A DNA stretch of 64,000 nt from NCBI GenBank assembly GCA_029624815.1, contig JARSSH010000057.1, positions 110,611 to 174,610 of the forward strand, read 5' to 3'. Origin of the DNA: Candidatus Competibacter sp. (lineage in GTDB: Bacteria; Pseudomonadota; Gammaproteobacteria; Competibacterales; Competibacteraceae). Position 1 is the stretch's first letter; each line of letters starts with the position of its first letter. Below, in pieces: positions 42,301 to 62,419 of this stretch. Position numbers and translations under genes: made by a program. A model generated the notes under the pieces. The model did no database searches and was not told the DNA's origin. It saw only the letters and a program-made list of their open reading frames with translations.

Positions 42301-42350
42301 GGGGATGGAGGATGCTGTACGAAATTCATTCCGGATGGGGTAAGGTCTTT

Positions 42351-43961
42351 TTAAAGCCCATCCGCGCCGACGAGGAAAGAGTGCTCGAGTAGCCTATCCC
42401 GATAAGCCGACTGCCCCTCTTCATCCTCGTGGCACGGCCAAGACCGAACATCGAAGCGATTTTGCAGGAAGTCGGTCAATTCGCGGCGGAAGGCGCTGAG
42501 GAATTCATCGGTTTCCACGACCCCGGCGGTGCGTACCGCATTCTCCCAACGATCGAGAACGGCGACGATGAGCCGACCCTCACCGCAGGCATGGGCAACA
42601 ATGCGCGCCTCGGAACCTTCTTCGTCAATGGCGACGCCGATCGGCAGGTCGCCAGTGGCCAAAAACCGCAACCACTCCAGCAATTCAGGAAATGGATCAT
42701 TGATTTCCGAGAAAAGAATCTTGGCGGTTCGTTCGCCAAAGGTCAGTAGTAGTTGATATGGCTCCAAGCGCACCCTCAATCGATCCAACTGGATGTCGCG
42801 ATTGGGAGTCGTGGCGCCCGCCCAATACTCCAGGGGACGGAACAATCGCTCGCGCTCCCGTGTATCCGTACACAATTCGGAACGTGTGGAAAGGGCGGAG
42901 ACCATATAAAGTCGAAAGGGAATGATTGACGCATCTTCTCCGCTATCGAGTTGGCACCTGTCGAGCAGGTCGCCGTGTGACGTCCAGCGAAAGGCTTCGT
43001 GTTCGAGGATACGGATGGCTTGACCGGGACCGTCCTCAACCGCCGTGACGTAGTCGAACTCGCACAGGACCGATTGGGTGGCTTCAAGAGTGAAGTGGAA
43101 ACGGGTCCAGCGGGTTACCGACTCTTTGTCGACCATTTTCAGACAACCCAGTCCTGCTTCGTCCAACCAGGTTTGTAGAGCGAGGCGACGCCCCCTGGCG
43201 CCCGGTGGCGGTTGGGGCGTGATCTCGTCCCGGACAGGTACTCCGACAGGCCACAGCAGCAGCCTTGCGAAAGTCTCGAGGCTCTTTCTCAAGCGTGCAT
43301 TGCGGCATAGCGAGAGGGGGAGGATGAAACCGCTGTAGTCGTGAACATGGCGGCGGTCGGCGCCGAGATCGCCGAAATCGAAGATTCCCTGGGGTATCTT
43401 TCCGGCGGCCCAGTGCCCCTGATAGCGGGTTGTTTTGCCTGATCGGACCAGCAGCAGGCATGGAGTCAGGCCATCAAATCGACCGCGCAGGACGCCGCTT
43501 TCGATCCGGCACAGGCCAAACTGAGGGGTGGATGTATCGGGTTTGGTGAGTTTACCCACGAATGTCTCGGCATCCGCCAGCCACGCCATTGCCTGTCGGC
43601 GCCAGGTATCCAGAGTTGGATTATCAACGGCTACTTGGTCGAGGCGATCCACGCCGAGGATATCGAGCAGATCGCTTGCAAGCTGCGTCACGTCCCCCGC
43701 TACCCGCAGATACTCGTCCTGAAGTGCTGGTGGCGCGATGCGCAGGAAACGGGCTTCCTGGTCGTGCCACCCCGAGCGGCATCTTTCCCCTCGCAGGCAG
43801 AGCCAGGCATCGACCGCCCAATGAAGTGCGTTCTGCATGTGGTCGAAAAACGATCCGAGGTACCTACGGCCCCCACCGAGGGCATAACGCACGCCACCGA
43901 GATCGTTGCTGGCGAATCGCCTTGCCTGCTCAGCCCAGATCTCGTCGCTATCTTCGGTCAT
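42351..43961 (-). CDS. Unknown protein A of a two-gene system
   Basis: Not recognised; 536 aa from ATG 43961, which overlaps the stop of the upstream unknown gene by 14 bp. A longer frame reaches 44000. The N-terminal 120 residues are helical and contain DAWLCLRGE at 51-59, a motif shared with its partner. The rest is mixed alpha/beta with many Trp, Arg and Glu residues and no signal peptide or TM helix, so it is cytosolic. The C-terminal third (FTLEATQSVLCEFDYVTAVE, then LRVRLEPYQLLLTFGERTAK) is predicted beta-rich. Convergent with ppx. Base use is less GC-rich than its neighbours, a possible sign of transfer. Confidence 0.75.
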   Translation of the reverse strand: MTEDSDEIWAEQARRFASNDLGGVRYALGGGRRYLGSFFDHMQNALHWAVDAWLCLRGERCRSGWHDQEARFLRIAPPALQDEYLRVAGDVTQLASDLLDILGVDRLDQVAVDNPTLDTWRRQAMAWLADAETFVGKLTKPDTSTPQFGLCRIESGVLRGRFDGLTPCLLLVRSGKTTRYQGHWAAGKIPQGIFDFGDLGADRRHVHDYSGFILPLSLCRNARLRKSLETFARLLLWPVGVPVRDEITPQPPPGARGRRLALQTWLDEAGLGCLKMVDKESVTRWTRFHFTLEATQSVLCEFDYVTAVEDGPGQAIRILEHEAFRWTSHGDLLDRCQLDSGEDASIIPFRLYMVSALSTRSELCTDTRERERLFRPLEYWAGATTPNRDIQLDRLRVRLEPYQLLLTFGERTAKILFSEINDPFPELLEWLRFLATGDLPIGVAIDEEGSEARIVAHACGEGRLIVAVLDRWENAVRTAGVVETDEFLSAFRRELTDFLQNRFDVRSWPCHEDEEGQSAYRDRLLEHSFLVGADGL

Positions 43962-45681
43962 GGTCTGGCATTTCCTCTTCAGAGCGGGGCGCAGAGCCAA
44001 GCAGGGCCTCGTATTCGATCCATAGCGTTTCGATCCGATCCAGTCGCTCCGAGTCTTCCGCCGTATCGTCGTTCACCAGCACGTCGAGCGCCGCGATCAG
44101 TCGCCGCTTGCGAACCAGGGCCAAGGGATCGCGCCAGGCGGGCCAGCCGGCTTCGACATTTGGCAGGGCGGCGTAGCCGAGCGCCTCGAAACGGCGGCGT
44201 CCCAAGGCGAGAGTCAGGTCGTCGTGGATTGCGCTCAGACGTTCCGGGTCGAAATCCCCACCATCATGGCGCCAGCCACAGAGTCGGCAAGGCTCCTCGC
44301 GGTTTTCCCGTATCCCCGGCAACCCGCAGCAGGAACAGATTTGGCGGGTTCCCCTGGCTTCGGGATGGCAGGCGAACCACAGCCAACGTCGATGCCAGGG
44401 TTGAGAGACAGCAATAGCCGCATCGACGGGAGCGGGAATGCGCTGAACGAACGGGTGAAATAGAGTGGCTTCCAGAATGCCCTGTTGGCCCCTATCGATG
44501 ACCAGTTTCGCGCCCTGACGCTGGACGATGCGGCCTTGTCCAACATTGGGAGACACGGCAACCCAGTCGCCTTCATAAAGATCGATCTCCGGCGCAACCA
44601 ACGCTTCGAGTGCGGCCAGCGCCTGCTCGAATTGGTGAAGAATCGCGGTAATTCCCGGTTCCCATCCCGTCAGTTGCTTCGGCAGCGCCCGAACACAGGC
44701 CATGCTGAATTCGCTATAAAAATGCAGGCAGTCGTTGAGCGGATCGGCGATGGACGGCGGCGCCCTGCCCTGTAATTTACGGATATGGCGCTCGGAAGGG
44801 TCGCGCCAATACACGCAGTCGTTCACCGGTGCGAAGGTGATCCACCATGCCTTTGCGGCGGCATCCAAGGTCTCGAGCAGCATGTTGCTGACATTCCCCA
44901 CGCCGAGCAGACCGGCGTTCTCAATCGAACGCTGGGTCTCGCAAAGGTTGTCATGGGCCTGCACCAGCCAGTAATACCCAGGTGCGGAGATGGGCGGAGT
45001 CCGTGGGCGCTCGATACGTTCGATCCGGGCGATTCGAAGGCTGTACCCCTTTACCAAGTCTTCCAAGGTGGCTGTCGGCACGATGATCCGCGCGATCAGA
45101 CCTCTCACGGTGAGAACCCGGCCTATCGATCTATCGTGAAGACGCACCCACTCGCCGGGATGCAGATTCACGTAGCGCTCTGCAACGACATCCTCGACCG
45201 CGAGCTGTAGCTCGTGAAGAGCCTTCTTATAATGGTTCTGCCTGTCGATACCCGCATAGAGCAGCTTTCGGTGCTCGTCGGAGAGCGGTGTAAACAAGTT
45301 CGTCGGAAAAGGTTCCGCGCGAATGGCTTGCTCGGCCGTCGCGAGTTCGGTCAGAGCAGCCGCTATCGATTCGGTTACCTCCGGTCGCGACCAAACCTGC
45401 AAACGTTGCTGCAAAACGTCCTTTTTCAGGTAACGCTCCAGGGGTAGCGGTTGAACGGGCTCGCCGCGCAACCACAACCATGCTTCGGCCAAGCGCGCCT
45501 TGGCCTGGTCGCCCGACCAGAAACCACGGTCGGTTTCGTACCAAAGTTTTCTTCCGGCGGCATTGATGTGGCCATCGGTTTTCTCCAGGCGAGCCTTCAA
45601 TTCCTCCGGCAAGACGCATACCGGTGTTGGCTCCTGGCTCTGGTTTTCCCGGCGATCATCCGGCGGATTGCTCATTTTCAT
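43948..45681 (-). CDS. Unknown protein B with CPCC-like zinc knuckle
   Basis: Not recognised; 577 aa from ATG 45681 (MKMSNPPDD). The frame runs open to 46665 but that part is antisense to the hydroxylase gene. Order: helical N-terminus with AWLWLRGE at 67-74, shared with protein A; a small beta-barrel-like segment (GEWVRLHDRSIGRVLTVRG); a second one (GDWVAVSPNVGQGRIVQRQG); then a Cys4 knuckle CSCCGLPG...CRLCGW at about 450-470, followed by LGRRRFEALGYA, which recalls the CPCC domain. The barrels look KOW/S1-like, so nucleic-acid contact is possible but unproven. Translationally coupled to gene A. Confidence 0.75.
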   Translation of the reverse strand: MKMSNPPDDRRENQSQEPTPVCVLPEELKARLEKTDGHINAAGRKLWYETDRGFWSGDQAKARLAEAWLWLRGEPVQPLPLERYLKKDVLQQRLQVWSRPEVTESIAAALTELATAEQAIRAEPFPTNLFTPLSDEHRKLLYAGIDRQNHYKKALHELQLAVEDVVAERYVNLHPGEWVRLHDRSIGRVLTVRGLIARIIVPTATLEDLVKGYSLRIARIERIERPRTPPISAPGYYWLVQAHDNLCETQRSIENAGLLGVGNVSNMLLETLDAAAKAWWITFAPVNDCVYWRDPSERHIRKLQGRAPPSIADPLNDCLHFYSEFSMACVRALPKQLTGWEPGITAILHQFEQALAALEALVAPEIDLYEGDWVAVSPNVGQGRIVQRQGAKLVIDRGQQGILEATLFHPFVQRIPAPVDAAIAVSQPWHRRWLWFACHPEARGTRQICSCCGLPGIRENREEPCRLCGWRHDGGDFDPERLSAIHDDLTLALGRRRFEALGYAALPNVEAGWPAWRDPLALVRKRRLIAALDVLVNDDTAEDSERLDRIETLWIEYEALLGSAPRSEEEMPDHDRR

Positions 45682-45746
45682 AGTGTAAGTAGTATCGTAA
45701 CCGTTCACCCCCACCCCAGCCTTCCCCCACAGGGGTGGAGGGAGTC

Positions 45747-49299: not shown

Positions 49300-50823
49300 C
49301 TATTCCCGCCACCCTCCCGCCAGCGCCGCCGGAGGATCGGCCAGCGACTGGAACCGCGCCAGCCGGACCGCGTTGCGCTGGCGGTGACCCAGCAGCGGCA
49401 TGATGCCCCGCGCCAGCAGCGCCTGCATGGCCCGTTCGCCCAGCAGCACCTCGGCGCCTAGCTGCATCAGCCGTTCCTCGGCTTCTCCGTACACATGCGC
49501 CGGCAGATCGTCCAGTTCCAGCACATCGCCGGGGCTGAAGTCCCAGCCGTTCTCCGCGAACGCCGCCGCGATCAGCCGCGCGCAGGCGAAGGCCGGATTG
49601 CCCCATAGATAGGCATCGGGATCGCGGCCCAGCGGCATTTCCTCGAATTCCAGTTGCTCGACCGGTTCGGTCTTGCGGCCGTAGGGCAGTCGCAGCAGCA
49701 CCCGCGGCAGCGTCAGCCCGAGCCAGGGCGCGACCTCGGTTTGGCGCAGCGCCCGCCAGTCTTGTTCGGCGGCGGCGGGCAGTGGCGCCCATTGCGCGGG
49801 GTCGGCCAGATCGGCGGTGGACGCGCAGCCCAGCACGCTCGGGTCGGCCGCCGCCAGGAACGGACCGCCGGCGTGAGCGGCCACCGATCCCAGCGCCGCC
49901 AGCAGGGCGATGTCATCCGGCGTGGCGCCAAACGCGTAGTCTCCCACCAACAGCGACCAGGGTTGGCTGTCGGGCAACTGGACTTCCCGGTCGATCAACA
50001 GGGTGTAGAGGCTGGTGGCGCGTGGTTGGCCAGCGGCGGTGCGCAGGTCGGCGAGCAGTTCCTGCTTGGTGACATCGAGCAGGTCGACGCGCAGCACATC
50101 GCTATCGAGACTGGCGACCAGCCCCTGCACGCCGCGCCAGGCCGCTTCCAGCGCCTGGAACGCCGGTTGGTGCAGGATCGCCCGCAACTGCTCGCCGATC
50201 GCCGCGTCCACCGCCTCGACCCAGGCCTCCTGCCGAGGGTCGGTCCGCACGATATGCGGTTGGACCACGGCTTGCAGCAGGGTGTTGATGGCCGCCGCTC
50301 CGACATCGGCCGGCCGCGCCGGCGGTGGCTGATCGGGCGTTTTGCCCAATAGCCGTTCGAGCAGGGCGGAATCGTTTTCCTCGGTGGCCGGTTCCGGCTT
50401 GGCGGATTCCTGGGGCGGCGTGGGGCTCAGTTCGGCGACGGCCTGGGCGAAACTGGCCGGATTGAGCAGGCGGGCGCGGCTGCGGCGCAGGGACTGAAAC
50501 AACTCCAGCCGCTGGTAAAGCGCATCGGGATGAAAGTCGTCGATCTGGGCGAAGCCGATGGTCAGCGCCGCGCCACCGCTTCCCCCATTCATCGCGAGTC
50601 GCAGTTTGGGGGTCAGCCGGGCCATGATGGCGTCAAGGTTGTCGGCGTTGACCGTCAGCAGCGCCCTGCTGGCCAAATCCAGGAGGGCGGCGGGAGTTTC
50701 CCGCTGCGCGCGTCCGCTGAAGTCGGCCATGACCAGCACGCGCAGCGGAGCATCGGAATCGCGGCGGCGGGGTCGCGAAGCGGAGCGGGGTAGTTCGAAC
50801 TGAAATTCCATTCGGCCTGGCAT
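49300..50823 (-). CDS. Type VI secretion sheath-like protein, TssB-TssC fusion
   Basis: 507 aa. Residues 1-130 match TssB/VipA (LRVLVMADFSGRAQR, INRDN-like LTVNADNLDAIMARLTPKL, IDDFHPDALYQRLE). After a Pro/Glu linker the rest matches TssC/VipB (QEAWVEAVDAAIGEQLRAIL, FQALEAAWRGVQGLV, VLLRLPYGRKTEPVEQLEFE, YLWGNPAFACARLIAAAFAE). In canonical systems these are two genes whose products build the contractile sheath. No baseplate, TssM or ClpV gene is within the window. Divergent from vgrG. Confidence 0.8.
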   Translation of the reverse strand: MPGRMEFQFELPRSASRPRRRDSDAPLRVLVMADFSGRAQRETPAALLDLASRALLTVNADNLDAIMARLTPKLRLAMNGGSGGAALTIGFAQIDDFHPDALYQRLELFQSLRRSRARLLNPASFAQAVAELSPTPPQESAKPEPATEENDSALLERLLGKTPDQPPPARPADVGAAAINTLLQAVVQPHIVRTDPRQEAWVEAVDAAIGEQLRAILHQPAFQALEAAWRGVQGLVASLDSDVLRVDLLDVTKQELLADLRTAAGQPRATSLYTLLIDREVQLPDSQPWSLLVGDYAFGATPDDIALLAALGSVAAHAGGPFLAAADPSVLGCASTADLADPAQWAPLPAAAEQDWRALRQTEVAPWLGLTLPRVLLRLPYGRKTEPVEQLEFEEMPLGRDPDAYLWGNPAFACARLIAAAFAENGWDFSPGDVLELDDLPAHVYGEAEERLMQLGAEVLLGERAMQALLARGIMPLLGHRQRNAVRLARFQSLADPPAALAGGWRE

Positions 50824-50977: not shown

Positions 50978-53335
50978 ATGGCCACCGCCACGCAAAAACA
51001 CCGGATGATCGCCGTCAACAGCGTCCTGGGCGAGGATGTCCTGCTGTTCGGACGCATGACTGTCACCGAACAAATGGGTCGATTGTTCGAGTGCGAGCTG
51101 GAACTGTTCAGCGAGAAAACCGACATCAAGCTGGCGGACGTGTTGGGCACCAACATGACGGTCCGCCTGGAACTGCCCTACAAGCAGGGCACCCGCTACT
51201 TCAATGGTCTGGTGACCCGTTTTAGTTATATCGGAACCCGCGGTTTGCGCTACGGGGCCTACCGCGCCACGCTGAGCCCATGGCTGTGGTTTCTGACCCG
51301 CACCGCCGACTGTCGGATTTTTCAGAACAAGAAGGTGCCCGACATCATCAAGGACGTGTTCCGGGAGCAGGGTTTCACCGATTTCAAGGATGCCCTGAGC
51401 GGCACTTACCGCGAATGGGAGTATTGCGTGCAGTACCGGGAGACCGATTTCAATTTCGTCTGCCGGTTGATGGAGCAGGAGGGCATGTACTGCTTTTTCA
51501 CGCACCAAAACGGCAAGCATGTGCTGGTGTTGGCCGACAATTACGGTTCTCACGAAAAATTCCCGAAATACGAAACCGTGCCCTATTTTCCGCCGGACAT
51601 CCACGAGCACCGCGAGCGGGACCATTTGTACGAATGGCACATTGTCCAGAACGTACAACCCGGCGCCTGCGCCTTGAACGATTACGATTTCACCGCCCCG
51701 CGCAAGAATTTGCGCTCGGTGTTGAACAAGCCCAAAGGCCATGCCTTGGCGGACTTCGAGATTTACGACTATCCGGGCGAATATGTCGACCCCGGCGATG
51801 GCAGCAACTATTCCAAGATCCGGCTGGAGGAATTTCTGGCCCAGCACGAAGTCGCCCGGGGAGAGGGCAACGCCGCCGGGTTGGCGGCCGGTTACCTGTT
51901 CAGTCTGAGCAACTGCTCGCGCGAGGACCAGAACCGGGAGTATTTGATCGTGTCGGCGATGCATCAGATCGAATCGGACGAATTCGAGTCCTTCCTGGAG
52001 GGGGGGATTTCCGGAAAGCCTTACCGGGGCGAGATTAGCGCGATCGAGGCCAAGCAACAGTATCGCGCACCGCGCGTCACCCCCAAGCCGGTGGTGCAGG
52101 GGCCGCAAACCGCCACCGTGGTCGGCCCCAGCGGCGAGGAAATCCACACCGATCAGTACGGGCGGGTGAAATGCCAGTTCCACTGGGATCGCTACGGCCG
52201 GGCCGACGAAAACAGCTCCTGCTGGATTCGCGTCTCGCAACTGTGGGCGGGCAAGCAGTGGGGCGCGATGAACATTCCGCGCATCGGCCAGGAAGTGATC
52301 GTGGATTTTCTGGAGGGCGATCCCGACCAGCCGATCGTGACCGGACGGGTCTACAACGGCATCAACATGCCGCCCTACGGTCTGCCGGCCAAGGCCACCA
52401 TGTCCACGCTCAAGAGCAATTCCAGCAAGGGCGGCAACGGTTTCAACGAAATTCGCCTGGAGGATGCCAAGGACAGCGAGCAGATGTTCATCCACGCTCA
52501 ACGCAACCAGGACATCCGGGTCAAGAAGGACGCCTTCGAGTGGATCGGCAACGAACGGCATCTGATTGTCAAGGCCGACCAGTTGGAAAAAGTGGAAGGC
52601 AATCAGCATCTGACCGTCAAGGGCGACCAGAAGGCCAAGATCGATGGCACGGCCTCGCTGAAAATCGGCGGCGATCAGAAGGAGGAAATCGGCGGCGATC
52701 AGCACCTCAAGGTCGGCAGCCGACAGAACATCAAAGCCGGCGGTACGATTTCGGTCGATGCCGGCATGGATTTGCAGCAGAAGGCGGGCATGAAGTGCGC
52801 CGTGGACGCCGGGATGGAGGTCCACATCAAAGGCGGCATGACCGTGGTGATCGAGGCCGGCATGTCGCTGACCATCAAGGTCGGCGGCAATTTCATCAAC
52901 ATCAATTCGGTGGGCGTGTTCATTCAGGGCTCGCTCGTCATGATCAACAGCGGCGGCGCGGCCGGCTCCGGCGCCGGGTGCTCGCCGGCCGCGCCGTCGC
53001 CGCCGGCCGCGCCCACGGAGCCCAAGGAAGCGGCCACCGCCGAATCCGGCCAGGCCAGCGACGCCCAGGCCGGACCCCAGGCCCAGCAGAAAAGTCAAAG
53101 TCTCGACTCGGCCAGTGTCGGCAACGTCGAACTGCTGGATGATGGGTTGCCGACCGGGAGCGGATCGTCGTCCCCGCCGCCGGCCGCCGCTTCCAATCCG
53201 CCGTCGCCGACGCCGCAAGCGCAGCAGCAGGCCGCGCAAGCCCAGACGGCCCGGAACGCCAGTGACAGCGCTAAACCTTTTGTTGAACCGCCGCCGCCGG
53301 CCCCGCCGCGAGGGGGGAGAACCACTCATGACTGA
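50978..53335 (+). CDS. vgrG: Type VI secretion spike protein VgrG (TssI) with Pro/Ala-rich tail
   Basis: Trimeric puncturing tip and effector carrier of T6SS. 785 aa. gp27-like N-terminus (LFGRMTVTEQMGRLFECELE), the base-hub YRETDFNFVCRLMEQEGMYC, gp5-OB region VKCQFHWDRYGRADENSSCW and VDFLEGDPDQPIVTGRVYN, and a long beta-helix of GGDQ-type repeats (about residues 515-660). The last 130 residues are Pro/Ala/Ser/Gln-rich low complexity, probably a flexible effector-docking extension, not an enzyme. DUF4123 adaptor follows. Confidence 0.95.
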   Translation: MATATQKHRMIAVNSVLGEDVLLFGRMTVTEQMGRLFECELELFSEKTDIKLADVLGTNMTVRLELPYKQGTRYFNGLVTRFSYIGTRGLRYGAYRATLSPWLWFLTRTADCRIFQNKKVPDIIKDVFREQGFTDFKDALSGTYREWEYCVQYRETDFNFVCRLMEQEGMYCFFTHQNGKHVLVLADNYGSHEKFPKYETVPYFPPDIHEHRERDHLYEWHIVQNVQPGACALNDYDFTAPRKNLRSVLNKPKGHALADFEIYDYPGEYVDPGDGSNYSKIRLEEFLAQHEVARGEGNAAGLAAGYLFSLSNCSREDQNREYLIVSAMHQIESDEFESFLEGGISGKPYRGEISAIEAKQQYRAPRVTPKPVVQGPQTATVVGPSGEEIHTDQYGRVKCQFHWDRYGRADENSSCWIRVSQLWAGKQWGAMNIPRIGQEVIVDFLEGDPDQPIVTGRVYNGINMPPYGLPAKATMSTLKSNSSKGGNGFNEIRLEDAKDSEQMFIHAQRNQDIRVKKDAFEWIGNERHLIVKADQLEKVEGNQHLTVKGDQKAKIDGTASLKIGGDQKEEIGGDQHLKVGSRQNIKAGGTISVDAGMDLQQKAGMKCAVDAGMEVHIKGGMTVVIEAGMSLTIKVGGNFININSVGVFIQGSLVMINSGGAAGSGAGCSPAAPSPPAAPTEPKEAATAESGQASDAQAGPQAQQKSQSLDSASVGNVELLDDGLPTGSGSSSPPPAAASNPPSPTPQAQQQAAQAQTARNASDSAKPFVEPPPPAPPRGGRTTHD

Positions 53336-55814: not shown

Positions 55815-58745
55815 TCAGCGTGTGGCCCGCGCCAGATTCAGCTCCAGTAATCGCCGTAGAATTTGGTCGTCGCCGAGATCCGCCGGCCAGCCGTAGGCGG
55901 CGGCGACGGCTTCATCCAGGGCGCGATGGGCGTTGGCCAGCCACGCCGGGCGCTGGTTGTAGAGGTTGGTCAGGGTGCGCTTCTTGAGTTCGGCGGCGTG
56001 TTCGGGCCTGGGGATCAGCCGGTCGGGGTAGGCCCTCACCCCCGGCCCCTCTCCCGCGGGGAGAGGGGAGATTTCCGGGATGCGCTCCACCCATGGCGAG
56101 GGGTTGAGCCAGTTCTCGCGCAGTTCGTTGAGGGTCCGGGCGGCGGCGGCGATGGCTTGGGCGCGCGGGTCGGCGGCGTAGGCGCTGGCCGGGATGTTCG
56201 GGGTCAGGCCGGCGGGGAAGGGGAAGGTCTCGAAGGTCATGGTCGAGTTGTAGCGGGGACGATCTTCCAGCGTTCCCCCTTTCGCTAAAGCCCAAACGAT
56301 ATGAAACCGCGACGACAGCACGCCAAAGGTCGCGTCGTCCTCGCGGGGAATCACGATCAGACTGTGTTCGGGCGCGGCGCTGATCGGAAACCAAACAAAG
56401 AAGCGATGCTTGGCGGTTTCCGGCGTGGCGATGTAGCGCGTCAGGCCCGCCAGTTTACGGCGCAACTCTGGGCGTGGGCGACCATGCCGCCACCAGTACT
56501 CAACCCGCGATTTCTCGCGGTTGTTCATCCGCACTGGTTTCACCTTCGCCAAGACATGAGCGAAAGGCATTTCGTAAAGGGCCGCTTCGCCCTCGCTCAA
56601 GTCGGCGCCGAAGTCGATGACCCAGCGGCCCTTCCAACCCTGGGTGACATCCACGCCGTTCCAGATCGGGCGCAGCACTTCGCTGTTCGATCGGCCATGC
56701 GGATTGGGTTGGCCCAACCAGCGTCGCGCCGTGTCGCCATCCACCGCGAATGCGCCCGCCAGACACAGGCCGAAAAACGAGCAACCGGCATTTTCCGGCA
56801 ACGGGCGCGCTTGCGTTAAATCCAGTGCGCCGGTGGTCTCGTTCGATCCGGTCAAATCGGCGTGAATCGCGGCGACGGGCTGGCCGTTCAGAAAAATCCC
56901 CCCGGCTTCGCCACCCCCCTTTTTCAAAGGGGGGTCAAGGGAGGCGTGGCTCCCCCCTTTGAAAAAGGGGGGCTGGGGGGGATTCCCAAACGCCACCAGC
57001 GACACCCGCACCGCCGCGCCTTCGTTGATCCATTCCAGATCGGACCAGGCGTGAAAGATCACGCCGCTCGCCCGGATGCGTTCCAGCACCGGTCGGTTGC
57101 GCTTCTGACGGATCGAGTTGGTCGCGACCAGTCCGGCCCGCTGCGCCAGTCCGGCTTCGATGTGCGCCCGCGCCTTCTCGAACCAGTAGCACACCAAATC
57201 GGCGCCGCCTGGAACCCGCCCCTGATAGGTCTGGCGTAGCGCCTCCACATACGCCGCCCCCAATTCGGATAATTGCTTCTTGTCCCCCAGGAACGGCGGG
57301 TTGCCGACGATGGCGTCCGCCGCCGGCCAGCTCGCCTCGCGGTCCCCGTCGAGCAGCGCGTCCCGGCACTCGATGGTGTCCAGCGGCTTGAGAATGGGCT
57401 GATCGTTGAGGCTGTAGCCGTGCCCCAGCATCCATTGAATCTCCCCGATCCACACCGTCAGCCGCGCCAGTTCCGCCGCGTAGGGATTGAGTTCGATCCC
57501 GAGCACCGCCTCCGGGCCGACCGCCGGGAAGCCGCGTTGCAAGCCCAGCGTTTCCGCCTCCAGCATCGCCTGGTGTTCGATGTCCTTGAGGGTCCGCAGC
57601 GCCAGGTACAGGAAATTACCCGAGCCACAGGCGGGATCGAGGACGCGGAAGGTGCGCAGCCGTTCCAGGAAGCCGTGCAGCCGGTCCGCGCCCTGCTGGC
57701 GGACTTTCGGGCCGGTTTTGCTCGTCCGGCCGGCGATGTCCGCCTTGACCGCCGCCCACTCCGCCAGCAGCGGCTCGCGGATGCTTGGATCGACCAGCCG
57801 GCGGATGGACCCGGCGTCGGTGTAGTGCGCGCCCAACTGGCCGCGCTTGTCCGGGTCGAGGCCGCGCTCGAACAGGGTGCCGAAGATCGCCGGTTCGATG
57901 GCGGACCAGTCCAGCGCCGCCGCCGAGTGCAGGAGATCCAGGTCGGCGCGCTCCAGCGGCAGGCAAGCGTCGTCGTCGAACAGCCCGCCGTTGAACCAGG
58001 CGATGCGGGTCAGGCCGAACCGGCCGCCGCTTTGCATGGCGCGAAACAACCCGCCGGCCAGGGCGGGGAATTCGGCCGGGTTGCGGCGGGCCTCGGCCAG
58101 CAGGTCGCCGAACAGGCGATCCGGCAACAGCCCGATATCCTCGGCGAACAGACAAAACAGCAGGCGGGTGATGAAGTGCGCCACCGGTTGGGGCGGGTGG
58201 CCGCGCTGGCGCAGGCGCTGCGCCAGGTCGCCCAGCAGGCGCGCCGCCACCTCGGTGACCGCTTCCCGCGTCTGGCCGGGCTTGAGCCGCTCGGGCTCGA
58301 CGAACGCCCAGCGTAGCTTTTGCAACTGGTCCGGGTCGGCCAGGTCGGCCAGCGCCAGCCGGTGGACGACGTTGACCGTGTTGGAAAAGTGGGTGTGGAT
58401 CTCGATCGTTTCCATGTCGGACGCGATCAGCAGCGGCGGGTTTTCCAGCGCCAGGGCGTATTGCCGCAATTGCCGCAGGGCCGCGTTCAAGTCCTTGTGC
58501 TTGCCCTTGTATTCCCAGGCGAAGCAGTGCCGCCGCCAGACATCGGCCCAACCATCGCCGCCGCCGGTCTTCTTCGCGCCCTTCTCGAAAGTGAACCACT
58601 CGCCGCGCGGGTCGGCCTCGGCGGGCGGTTCAAGGTCGAGCAGCCGGCAAAGACCGATGAAATGCTGTTGAGCGCCGCTGCGCTCGTTAAGCGTGCTGTC
58701 GCGCCAAGTGCGGATAAAGGATTCGGTCTGATCCGGGGCGGGCAT
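55815..58745 (-). CDS. Type IIL (MmeI-like) restriction-modification enzyme, single chain
   Basis: Combines endonuclease, N6-adenine methyltransferase and target recognition in one 976-aa polypeptide, for host defence. ATG 58745 is preferred to a TTG at 58754. Nuclease: Asp68-x9-Glu78-Tyr-Lys80, exactly the D-x9-ExK spacing of MmeI. A helical connector follows. Methyltransferase: motif I DPACGSGNFL (about 370) and catalytic NPPF (about 481). Target-recognition domain in the C-terminal third. Two palindromic elements sit in frame: 56895-56984 (about residues 588-617) and near 56033-56072 (about 892-905). The second lies beyond the target-recognition core. Whether the enzyme is active with these inserts is unknown. 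Confidence 0.88.
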   Translation of the reverse strand: MPAPDQTESFIRTWRDSTLNERSGAQQHFIGLCRLLDLEPPAEADPRGEWFTFEKGAKKTGGGDGWADVWRRHCFAWEYKGKHKDLNAALRQLRQYALALENPPLLIASDMETIEIHTHFSNTVNVVHRLALADLADPDQLQKLRWAFVEPERLKPGQTREAVTEVAARLLGDLAQRLRQRGHPPQPVAHFITRLLFCLFAEDIGLLPDRLFGDLLAEARRNPAEFPALAGGLFRAMQSGGRFGLTRIAWFNGGLFDDDACLPLERADLDLLHSAAALDWSAIEPAIFGTLFERGLDPDKRGQLGAHYTDAGSIRRLVDPSIREPLLAEWAAVKADIAGRTSKTGPKVRQQGADRLHGFLERLRTFRVLDPACGSGNFLYLALRTLKDIEHQAMLEAETLGLQRGFPAVGPEAVLGIELNPYAAELARLTVWIGEIQWMLGHGYSLNDQPILKPLDTIECRDALLDGDREASWPAADAIVGNPPFLGDKKQLSELGAAYVEALRQTYQGRVPGGADLVCYWFEKARAHIEAGLAQRAGLVATNSIRQKRNRPVLERIRASGVIFHAWSDLEWINEGAAVRVSLVAFGNPPQPPFFKGGSHASLDPPLKKGGGEAGGIFLNGQPVAAIHADLTGSNETTGALDLTQARPLPENAGCSFFGLCLAGAFAVDGDTARRWLGQPNPHGRSNSEVLRPIWNGVDVTQGWKGRWVIDFGADLSEGEAALYEMPFAHVLAKVKPVRMNNREKSRVEYWWRHGRPRPELRRKLAGLTRYIATPETAKHRFFVWFPISAAPEHSLIVIPREDDATFGVLSSRFHIVWALAKGGTLEDRPRYNSTMTFETFPFPAGLTPNIPASAYAADPRAQAIAAAARTLNELRENWLNPSPWVERIPEISPLPAGEGPGVRAYPDRLIPRPEHAAELKKRTLTNLYNQRPAWLANAHRALDEAVAAAYGWPADLGDDQILRRLLELNLARATR
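56046..56068. repeat. CCCCTCTCCCG palindrome core inside the restriction gene
   Basis: CCCCTCTCCCGCGGGGAGAGGGG is the same core as in the elements at 55079, 55223 and 58870, here flanked by GCCCTCACCCCCGG on one side. Read on the minus strand it codes SPLPAGEGPGVRA in frame. Confidence 0.75.
56895..56984. repeat. 90-bp in-frame inverted-repeat insert inside the restriction gene
   Basis: Outer AATCCCCCC (56895) and GGGGGGATT (56976-56984) enclose two 21-bp arms at 56914-56934 and 56952-56972 that are exact reverse complements. The unit is 90 bp, exactly 30 codons, and codes the low-complexity NPPQPPFFKGG...PPLKKGGGEAGGI segment. Confidence 0.8.
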
Positions 58746-58805
58746 GGCGTTCAATCCGTGACGACGGCGGGCGAGGTTTAAAGGCGTCGAAATATTGATG
58801 CAAAA

Positions 58806-58988: not shown

Positions 58989-60224
58989 TCACACCAAGAC
59001 CTCCACACAGGGCGGATGGCCGAGAAACGCGGTCGGACTGGCGGTCAGCCCATAAGCGCCGGACTGGAACACCACGATCAAGTCGCCGACATCGGCTTTC
59101 GCCAGCTCCATCCGGTCGGCCAGAATATCCAGCGGCGTGCACAGCGGCCCGACCACCGTCACGACTTCCCGTTCGGTTCCGACGACCCGGTTGCCGACCA
59201 CGACCGGATAATTCTTGCGGAGCACCTGGCCAAAGTTGCCGGACGCCGCCAAGTGATGATGCAAACCACCGTTGGTAATCAGGAAAGTGTGGCCGCGCGA
59301 CACCTTGCGATCCACCACCTCGGCGACGTAGAGGCCGGCTTCGCCGACCAGATAGCGGCCCAGTTCCAGCACCACTTGCGCCTGGGGTAGTCGTGCCTCA
59401 ACCACCGGCAGCCAGCGTTCCAGATTGACGGCGATCGGCGTCAGATCGAGCGGCTGGTCGCCAGGGAAGTAGGGAATGCCGAAACCGCCGCCGATGTTGA
59501 GCAGGCGCACCGGTCCCGGCGCGTCGGCCGCCAGCCGCAGCGCCAGCTCGAACGTGCGGTCGTGCGCTTCGACAATGGCCTCGGCGCGCAGATTCTGCGA
59601 GCCGGTGAAGATGTGAAAGCCCTCAAAATCCAGTTCCAGCTCGCCGATCCGTCGCAGCAGCGCCGGAACCTGCTCGGCGTCCACCCCGAACGGTTTGGGG
59701 CCGCCGCCCATCTTCATCCCGGAGGCTTTCAGCTCGAAATCCGGGTTGACCCGCACCGCCGTTCGGGGTCGCTGCCCCTGTTCCCGGCCCAGGCGGGCCG
59801 CCGTTTCCAGTTCCCGGACCGACTCCAGATTGATCGTAATGCCGGCGGCGATGGCGGCGGCCAGTTCCGGTGGCCGTTTTCCCGGACCGGCGAAGCTGAT
59901 CTCGGCGGGACTCATGCCGGCGTCCAGCGCGACGCGCAATTCGCCCAGCGAGGCGACATCCAGTCCATCCACCAATCCGGCCATGTGCCGGACCAGCGCC
60001 GGCATCGGATTGGCCTTGATCGCATAATGTAGCTTGATGGCGGTTGGTAGTTCGCCGCGCAGCAGCGCGACTTTTCGATCCAACAGGCGGCGGTCGTAGG
60101 CGTAAAACGGGGTTTGTCCGACCCGCGCCGCCAGTTGGGTCAGCGGAATGCCGCCCACCCGCAAACAGTCGTCGATGGTCGGAAACTGATCCATCGGCCA
60201 GTGGGCGGGGCGGGTTGTACCCAT
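58989..60224 (-). CDS. PLP-dependent decarboxylase, exosortase-A-system associated
   Basis: Type III fold ornithine/diaminopimelate decarboxylase family, 411 aa. PLP Lys in KLHYAIKANPMPALVRHM, GLDVASLGELRVALDAG, phosphate loop LNIGGGFGIPYFPGD, and GPLCTPLDILADRMEL with the catalytic Cys. The sequence follows the family that accompanies exosortase-A/EPS loci (TIGR03099 type) more than true LysA. It lies 3' of the acyl-CoA ligase on the same strand, the usual order. Substrate unknown. Confidence 0.85.
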   Translation of the reverse strand: MGTTRPAHWPMDQFPTIDDCLRVGGIPLTQLAARVGQTPFYAYDRRLLDRKVALLRGELPTAIKLHYAIKANPMPALVRHMAGLVDGLDVASLGELRVALDAGMSPAEISFAGPGKRPPELAAAIAAGITINLESVRELETAARLGREQGQRPRTAVRVNPDFELKASGMKMGGGPKPFGVDAEQVPALLRRIGELELDFEGFHIFTGSQNLRAEAIVEAHDRTFELALRLAADAPGPVRLLNIGGGFGIPYFPGDQPLDLTPIAVNLERWLPVVEARLPQAQVVLELGRYLVGEAGLYVAEVVDRKVSRGHTFLITNGGLHHHLAASGNFGQVLRKNYPVVVGNRVVGTEREVVTVVGPLCTPLDILADRMELAKADVGDLIVVFQSGAYGLTASPTAFLGHPPCVEVLV

Positions 60225-60245
60225 CGGCGTATACCTTATTAACCC

Positions 60246-61838
60246 TCAAACAAGCGATTCCGGAAATAGCGTGCGAAACTCCTCGACCAGGTTTTTGCGG
60301 TCGATCTTGCCGTTGGGGTTGCGCGGCAGGTCGGCACGGCGGACGATCACCCGCAAGGGCGTCATGAAGTTGGGCAAGTGTTGTTTGCAGCGGGCGATCA
60401 GCGCGCTTTCGTTGAAATCGTCGCACAGCGGCTTGACCACGGCGACCACCGCCTGGCCGAGCATCGGATGCGGAATGCCCAGCGCCGCCGCTTCGGCCAC
60501 CTGGCCGCTGCCGTACAGCACTTCTTCGATCTCGGTTGGGCTGACCCGATAGCCGGAGGTCTTGATCATGTCGTCCTTGCGGCCGATGAAATACAGGAAC
60601 CCCTCCTCGTCGGCGCGCACCGTATCGCCGGACCAGACCGCCGGTTCGGTCAAGGGCAGGCCGGGGTTCTGGCCGGGCGCCGGGCGGAAGCGTTCGACGG
60701 TCTTGATCGGATCGTTCCAGTAACCCAGCGCCACCAGCGCGCCGCGATGCACCAGTTCGCCCGGTTCGCCGGGCGCGCAGGGCGAGCCATCCTCGCGCAC
60801 CACCAGAACCTCGGCATTGGGAATAGCCTTGCCGATGGAGTCCGGCCGGCGCTCGATTTCCGTCGGCGGCAGATAGGTGGAGCGGAAGGCTTCGGTCAGG
60901 CCGTACATCAGGAACGGGGTGGTTTTCGGCAAGACTCGGCGCAGGGCCGTCAGGGTGGCGCGCGGCATGGCCCCGCCGGAGTTGGTGAAATAGCGCAGGC
61001 TGTCCACCGCCGCCGCCGGCCATTCCAACTGCGCCAGTTGCACCCACATCGGCGGCACCGCCGCCAGTCCGGTGATCCGCTCGCGGGCGACCGTGTTGAT
61101 CGCGTCGCGCGGCAGCAGATAATCCATCAGCACGACGCGCGCGCCGACCGCGAAAGCGGTGGTCATCTGGCTGAGGCCGTAATCGAAGCTGAACGGCAGC
61201 AGCGCCAGAATGCGGTCGTCGGCCCGGTTGTCGAGGTATTCGGCGACGCTGAAAGCGCCAGCCAGCATGTTGCGATGCGATAGAATCACGCCCTTGGGTT
61301 TGCCGGTGCTGCCCGAGGTGTACAGAATGGCGGCCATGTCGATGTCGATCGTTCGCGCCGCCGCCCGGCCGGCGTCCGCTTCCAGCAGTTCGGACCAGTC
61401 GATGACTTGGATGTGGTGCATGCGGCGGCCGATGGACGATATTCCATCGGCCAGCACCAGGCTGTGCAGGTCCGGGCAGTCGGCCAGCACGGGTTTCAGC
61501 AACTCCGCTCGGTCGCGCGCGGTGATCAGAACCCGAACGTTGCAGTCGCGCAGGATATAGGCCACCTGCTCGGCTTTTAATAAGGGATTGATCGGCACGA
61601 ACGCGCCGCCGGCCAGCGCGGCGCCAAACAGGGTGACGACGGTTTCCAAGCGCTTCGGCAGGTAGACGGCGACCCGCTCGGTTCGATTCAGGTCGAGCGC
61701 CAGCAAGCCGCGGGCCGCGGCCTGAATCAGACTGGCGAGAGTGGCGTAATCCAGGCTGGTTCGCCGGTGAACGACCGCGATGGCGGTGGGCGTGCGCTCC
61801 GCCTGTTCGAGAATGAGTTCGTGCAGCAGTTTGACCAT
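60246..61838 (-). CDS. AMP-forming acyl-CoA ligase, exosortase-A-system associated
   Basis: Activates a carboxylate by adenylation. 530 aa from ATG 61838 (MVKLLHELILEQAERTP), the family start, although no ribosome site is visible before it; the frame is open to 62411. ANL motifs: AAILYTSGSTGKPKGVILSH (P-loop), MYGLTEAFRSTYLPP, SGDTVRADEEGFLYFIGRKD and PRNPNGKIDRKNL with the catalytic Lys. Matches the ligase family paired with the decarboxylase above (TIGR03098 type). Probably part of EPS or surface-modification chemistry together with the genes at 1-8799. Confidence 0.87.
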   Translation of the reverse strand: MVKLLHELILEQAERTPTAIAVVHRRTSLDYATLASLIQAAARGLLALDLNRTERVAVYLPKRLETVVTLFGAALAGGAFVPINPLLKAEQVAYILRDCNVRVLITARDRAELLKPVLADCPDLHSLVLADGISSIGRRMHHIQVIDWSELLEADAGRAAARTIDIDMAAILYTSGSTGKPKGVILSHRNMLAGAFSVAEYLDNRADDRILALLPFSFDYGLSQMTTAFAVGARVVLMDYLLPRDAINTVARERITGLAAVPPMWVQLAQLEWPAAAVDSLRYFTNSGGAMPRATLTALRRVLPKTTPFLMYGLTEAFRSTYLPPTEIERRPDSIGKAIPNAEVLVVREDGSPCAPGEPGELVHRGALVALGYWNDPIKTVERFRPAPGQNPGLPLTEPAVWSGDTVRADEEGFLYFIGRKDDMIKTSGYRVSPTEIEEVLYGSGQVAEAAALGIPHPMLGQAVVAVVKPLCDDFNESALIARCKQHLPNFMTPLRVIVRRADLPRNPNGKIDRKNLVEEFRTLFPESLV

Positions 61839-61954
61839 GCGTGGAGGAGGAAGGAATCCGGTAGGCGAATGATGAATATAATTATGAACGATAATGGCCG
61901 GCGCGGTGACGGACGCCGGCGGGATAATTTCCCGGCTGGCTTGGAGGGAGGCGC

Positions 61955-62212
61955 ATGAAATCCCAGTGGGTCGAACCGATCCTGGTGCTGTATACGACCA
62001 GTGGCTGTCACCTGTGCGAACAAGCCGAAGCGTTGGTCCGGCGGCAAACCACCGGGGTCGGCACGGTCGAAATCGTCGACGATGAGGAGTTGCTGGAACG
62101 GTACGGTGTCCGCATCCCGGTCCTGCGCCGCCTGGACACTGGGAACGAGCTGGATTGGCCTTTCGACGCGGACGGGGTCCGGCGTCTGCTGGGTAGCCAT
62201 CAGCCCGTTTGA
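61955..62212 (+). CDS. Glutaredoxin-like (DUF836) thiol protein
   Basis: 85-aa thioredoxin-fold protein. The redox site is CHLC in LVLYTTSGCHLCEQAEAL; a cis-Pro follows in GVRIPVLRR. ATG 61955 has GGAGG upstream. Divergent from the ligase; followed by an intrinsic terminator. Confidence 0.85.
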   Translation: MKSQWVEPILVLYTTSGCHLCEQAEALVRRQTTGVGTVEIVDDEELLERYGVRIPVLRRLDTGNELDWPFDADGVRRLLGSHQPV

Positions 62213-62298
62213 GCGGATTTTGCACGTTTTGGAATGGGTGTGCCCGATGATCGTGCAAATCACTCCGCGACCCGGCGACGACGCCGCCCATTCGAAAC

Positions 62299-62330
62299 AG
62301 CCGGGACGCCGTTCCCGGCTTTGTTTTTTT
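62299..62330 (+). terminator. Rho-independent terminator after the glutaredoxin-like gene
   Basis: AGCCGGGA (62299-62306) and TCCCGGCT (62313-62320) form a perfect 8-bp stem with a 6-nt loop, followed by TTGTTTTTTT. The clearest intrinsic terminator in the window. Confidence 0.85.
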
Positions 62331-62419
62331 AGCGTGACCGCCCGCCCCCTCTTTCCATGGAGGGTGGAGGAATTTGGGAGAAAGGGGCGCTTCGATAGCC
62401 TGAGAGGACATCCACGATT

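Follow-up and report, generated by a model that had tools for sequence, protein, structure and literature searches.

A conserved, overlapping gene pair in Candidatus Competibacter, a probable new accessory of anti-phage defense

Type I restriction-modification (RM) operons with accessory genes are the described systems with which the gene pair reported here invites comparison at the level of the locus. At the level of single domains, the comparisons lie with the HEPN superfamily and its HepT toxins, the Cys_rich_CPCC family (PF14206), the C-terminal Tudor-like barrel of UvrD, and the PURA/Whirly-like fold. In the open-licence papers searched, we found nothing relevant on CPCC domains or on gene pairs of this kind, and no description of this pair. 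The two genes, A and B, lie in a 64,000-nucleotide stretch of a Candidatus Competibacter sp. genome (assembly GCA_029624815.1, contig JARSSH010000057.1, forward-strand positions 110,611 to 174,610), the whole of which is referred to as the window. On our analysis, the two genes probably assist anti-phage defense in a way not described so far.

The overlapping gene pair and its insertion site

Gene B (45681-43948, minus strand) and gene A (43961-42351, minus strand) each begin with ATG and encode 577 and 536 amino acids, respectively. Both are supported by their ORFs and by orthologs, 42% identical for B in Azospirillum RU38E and 41% identical for A in Azospirillum and Niveispirillum. An ORF check gave an overlap of 14 nt between the two minus-strand reading frames, and the two overlapping genes proposed in the preliminary description are therefore real. 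In Azospirillum sp. RU38E and Niveispirillum sp. SYP-B3756, B and A occur in the same order, again overlapping and with about 41 to 43% identity, the Niveispirillum B being incomplete near a contig end. The proposed co-translation and the conservation of the pair are supported. Only short adjacent pieces of B and A, a decayed remnant, are left in a third relative, another genome of that taxonomic order (G529:C1:1240811-1241141), where they are located upstream of a LexA-like gene. The preliminary description would have counted unpaired homologs as a refutation, and this is half the case: short homologs of A do occur without B, although both genes are present in all four of the cases found that are full-length or remnants. 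One apparent B without A, in G405, was a weak match to the CPCC region in which no gene was resolved, and it was set aside. The dN/dS of ortholog pairs is 0.17 to 0.26, which corresponds to purifying selection; the A proteins of Azospirillum and Niveispirillum give 0.17, and the A protein is therefore under selection.

Profile searches placed neither protein in a Pfam or NCBIfam family apart from a weak, sub-threshold CPCC zinc domain in B, and no PADLOC model matched A or B up to E 10, in agreement with the earlier statement that neither has a nameable family. Sequence searches of the PDB likewise yielded no known family beyond CPCC. An NCBIfam match of A to trans-aconitate methyltransferase scored 18 bits against a cut-off of 320 and was treated as chance. 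In the collections searched, relatives of A and B were absent from viral contigs and plasmids, and relatives of B also from phages.

A less GC-rich, foreign-looking composition had been noted for the pair. The GC content of A and B is 0.59 to 0.60, and their GC3 (0.65 for A, 0.68 for B) lies below the 0.78 to 0.85 of the immediate flanking genes, as had been described. Local mobility is likewise supported. The site is empty in a sister species (G001), where the exopolyphosphatase-sterol desaturase junction measures 58 bp and lacks the pair. Alignment of the window to the sister species stops at 42304 and 45764. The gap between exopolyphosphatase and sterol desaturase is a variable insertion site, holding 58 bp in G001, 7 kb in G003, and 1.3 kb in G023; the 7 kb in G003 consist of other, unrelated genes. 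B was absent from all 58 relatives of the window genome (0/58 at E 0.001). Given presence in one species and absence in its sister at a variable site, the pair was either gained here or lost in the sister species. From the composition of the genes, we infer that gain is more likely than loss, and A and B were probably transferred. A G-rich sequence resembling an inverted repeat (45707-45744) lies in the gap from the stop codon of the sterol desaturase gene to the B start, and no second copy of it was found within the window. A promoter scan of the region was uninformative and found no promoter.

Predicted domains of A and B

The AlphaFold model of B (mean pLDDT 57) places a small barrel after each of two helical segments and ends with the CPCC domain followed by helices at the C terminus (all domain coordinates are on the minus strand). 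The N-terminal helical segment (aa 26-171; 45169..45606) is mostly modeled at low confidence. It is followed by predicted barrel 1 (aa 172-225; 45007..45168), a second helical bundle of HEPN-like fold (aa 231-367; 44581..44991), and predicted barrel 2 (aa 368-420; 44422..44580). The barrels, which the preliminary description had picked out as barrel-like segments, are repeats of each other, aligning in hhalign with a score of 24.8 versus 15.4 for the best of 60 shuffles. Structural matches of B to talin, a GPCR, and designed bundles were treated as generic matches of helical bundles.

The Cys knuckle described earlier in B corresponds to a real Cys cluster, within a CPCC-type zinc domain (aa 449-503; 44173..44337) that reads CSCC...CRLC here. 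PF14206 matches the window B with E 8e-5 and 22.8 bits, under the gathering score of 24.5, and matches the B orthologs better (best E 1.2e-6). C449, C451, C452, C465, and C468 are invariant across three sequences and are putative zinc ligands. B resembles Cys_rich_CPCC in how its Cys pairs are spaced and in the helix region after them; it differs in being a 577-aa protein with this as one domain, in its CSCC motif, and in a score below the gathering cut-off.

The model of A has a mean pLDDT of 63. Its N-terminal helical bundle, predicted to be HEPN-like (aa 3-139; 43545..43955), is modeled at a pLDDT of about 57 to 87 per 10-residue block, and 6 of its top 11 VIA matches are labeled HEPN or HepT complexes. 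The middle region (aa 150-385; 42807..43514), poorly modeled and delimited by alignments, is common to the short forms of A. The C-terminal domain (aa 394-502; 42456..42782), predicted as beta-beta-beta-alpha/beta4-alpha with a pLDDT mostly of 70 to 90, is supported by the family alignment and a weak PURA match, and its DxEG motif is invariant in ten aligned family members.

The preliminary description had read a shared AWLxLRGE motif as a mark of common ancestry or a shared surface. The sequence does occur in both proteins, as AWLCLRGE at residues 52-59 of A and AWLWLRGE at residues 67-74 of B, within the N-terminal helical segment; it is not, however, a conserved shared motif, since the Azospirillum ortholog of A has CWLRQQSE at this position. 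The 10-residue AWLxLRGE stretch was the sole BLASTP match between A and B, with E 0.79. A 7/8 match was reached in 16 of 1500 shuffles, a marginal value for a motif chosen after the fact, and the N-terminal segments of A and B compare at chance level (8/40 shuffles equally good). Common ancestry by way of this motif was rejected on these grounds. The better correspondence is that of the A N-terminal bundle with the second bundle of B, both modeled as HEPN-like, rather than of the two N termini; its score was reached by 0/40 shuffles.

A HEPN-like fold would fit the view that the pair is a complete stand-alone defense or abortive-infection module, with a HEPN-like bundle as RNase effector and the B barrels and zinc domain as sensor. 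Such folds are predicted for the A N terminus, whose model aligns with 2hsb at Z 11.2 (rmsd 3.6, 117 aligned), and for the second bundle of B (Z 10.4, rmsd 4.2, 124 aligned). HEPN chains are prominent in the structural match lists, although Z values of 9 to 11 are in the chance range for helical bundles. For the second bundle of B, Foldseek ranks 1 and 2 are a single HEPN protein, 4nqf, and the VIA list is mixed. Within the window the pair also stands by itself, and its two genes move together. Against an RNase effector, the A bundle and the second bundle of B have no conserved Rx4-6H: in comparison with orthologs, R60/H66 of the A bundle is not kept, nor is R293 of the second bundle of B. R31-x6-H38 of B is retained in its ortholog; it sits, however, in a low-confidence stretch ahead of the bundle and outside a confident domain. 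A search of the whole genome with the HEPN profile PF05168 at E 0.01 found nothing, and hhalign comparison of the A N terminus with five HEPN proteins gave a probability of 0.5%. No enzyme active site was recognized in A or B. We consider a stand-alone effector unlikely.

Other structural likenesses are to binding folds. The C-terminal Tudor-like barrel of UvrD (7egt_B) aligns with the B model over 48 columns (TM 0.81 on target, rmsd 1.8) and shares, by eye, a GDWV...GR pattern; the Foldseek E is 0.44, B has no helicase, and the match is not assigned to either barrel. Residues 391-503 of A align with PURA 8cht_B (Z 7.1, rmsd 3.0, 105 aligned), and MRP1/MRP2 entries are among the Foldseek matches of A; this Z is below 8, there is no sequence match, and the first half of A's domain has three strands, not four. 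No Foldseek match of the A or B models reached E 0.001, and helical bundles fit many folds. A viral structure library also yielded nothing at E 0.001, the entries concerned being mostly short phage proteins. Together, the modeled barrels, the zinc domain, and the weakly PURA-like fold suggest binding of nucleic acid or protein.

Genomic neighborhoods of the A family

Proteins of the A family recur beside defense genes in unrelated loci, comprising type I RM, type III RM, I-F-like CRISPR, and Vsr/C5-methyltransferase loci, an association that is fairly well supported. Short A proteins lack the N-terminal bundle and occur without B. In three related genomes, a short A comes directly after hsdR-hsdM-hsdS, and the genes behind it are a small one and one for an Mrr-type endonuclease. 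In one genome from the class to which the window belongs, a short A adjoins cas1 and cas2-3 (type I-F), not far from a WYL regulator. Proteins consisting of the last A domain only adjoin type III mod/res in some loci and lie near Vsr and C5-methyltransferase genes in others. In the type III RM loci, the gene behind that for the A domain is a conserved one of ImmA/IrrE type. Two further small A-family matches have no clear defense neighbor, and the short forms of A have no PADLOC match. The Azospirillum B-A pair is divergent from a WYL regulator with hsdM/S/R alongside; RM genes were not seen in the visible stretch around the Niveispirillum copy. Marker proteins were found in 0/20 control stretches (16 kb each, same genome set), a contrast that is biased and overstated because the markers were taken from the positive loci. 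By eye, one locus carried a SIR2-like gene; it gave no match to Pfam at 1e-5 and was left out of the evidence.

Within the window, no defense gene adjoins the pair, and the nearest is MmeI-like, at 10 kb. This gene (55815-58754, minus strand) encodes an MmeI-type IIG RM enzyme. Other genes on the same side include one in which the type VI sheath parts VipA/TssB and VipB/TssC are fused in one protein (49300-50823, minus strand), a VgrG gene beside it (50978-53335), and exosortase A-associated acyl-CoA ligase and PLP decarboxylase genes (58989-62411, minus strand). The earlier proposal of an accessory, defense-related system therefore stands in part: the A-family neighborhoods favor it, whereas the copy in the window has no adjacent defense gene.

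These neighborhoods could also arise by hitch-hiking on genomic islands, the pair then being accessory cargo whose role, be it housekeeping or metabolic, has nothing to do with phages. Islands mix functions, and unrelated cargo occupies the same insertion site in a sister species. Hitch-hiking would, however, hardly account for four kinds of defense locus with short A directly behind RM genes, and we regard unrelated cargo as improbable. Least likely is a protective module akin to immunity proteins or antitoxins, which would restrain a toxic partner such as a secreted toxin or a restriction enzyme. In its favor, A-domain proteins are small, diverse, and adjoin potentially self-toxic enzymes, and type VI secretion genes (VgrG, fused sheath) lie 4 to 8 kb off. 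Against it, neither the window nor Azospirillum has a toxin gene next to the pair, and the size and multi-domain build of A and B are unusual for immunity proteins.

An accessory role and its relation to known systems

The suggested binding of nucleic acid or protein leads us to favor an accessory complex whose task would be to sense or modulate how restriction-type systems target DNA, a reading that we rank above the stand-alone effector, the unrelated cargo, and the protective module. Our tentative reading is that B-A is a co-translated, small, non-enzymatic accessory complex of restriction-type defense, acting on DNA targeting in trans. The pair itself, its conservation, its presence here and absence from a sister species, and the neighborhoods of the A family are observed; complex formation, nucleic-acid binding, and any effect on restriction are what we infer from them. 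A and B would be translated together and assemble; B, with its two barrels and zinc domain, would bind nucleic acid or partner proteins, and A would join B via its HEPN-like bundle and contribute the conserved C-terminal domain. In short A proteins, the C-terminal domain may cooperate directly with the restriction or CRISPR machinery. In this genome, the complex would sense or modulate targeting in trans, with the type IIG enzyme 10 kb off.

A broader possibility, which we hold to be rather doubtful, is that the A family is a plug-in module common to type I RM, type III RM, and CRISPR I-F, and that B-A is its free-standing form, acting without a resident RM system. If one accessory family does serve all three, these systems would have a step of DNA immunity in common that has been overlooked in bacteria because A-family proteins match no profile; sensing, targeting control, or self-protection would be candidates for that step. 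The B-A pair would then be a compact, testable form of such a family.

Compared with type I RM operons that carry accessory genes, A and B differ in having no R, M, or S domain, and in the window no RM operon adjoins them. They resemble these operons in the placement of their relatives: short A follows hsdR-hsdM-hsdS, and the Azospirillum pair stands divergent from WYL-hsdMSR.
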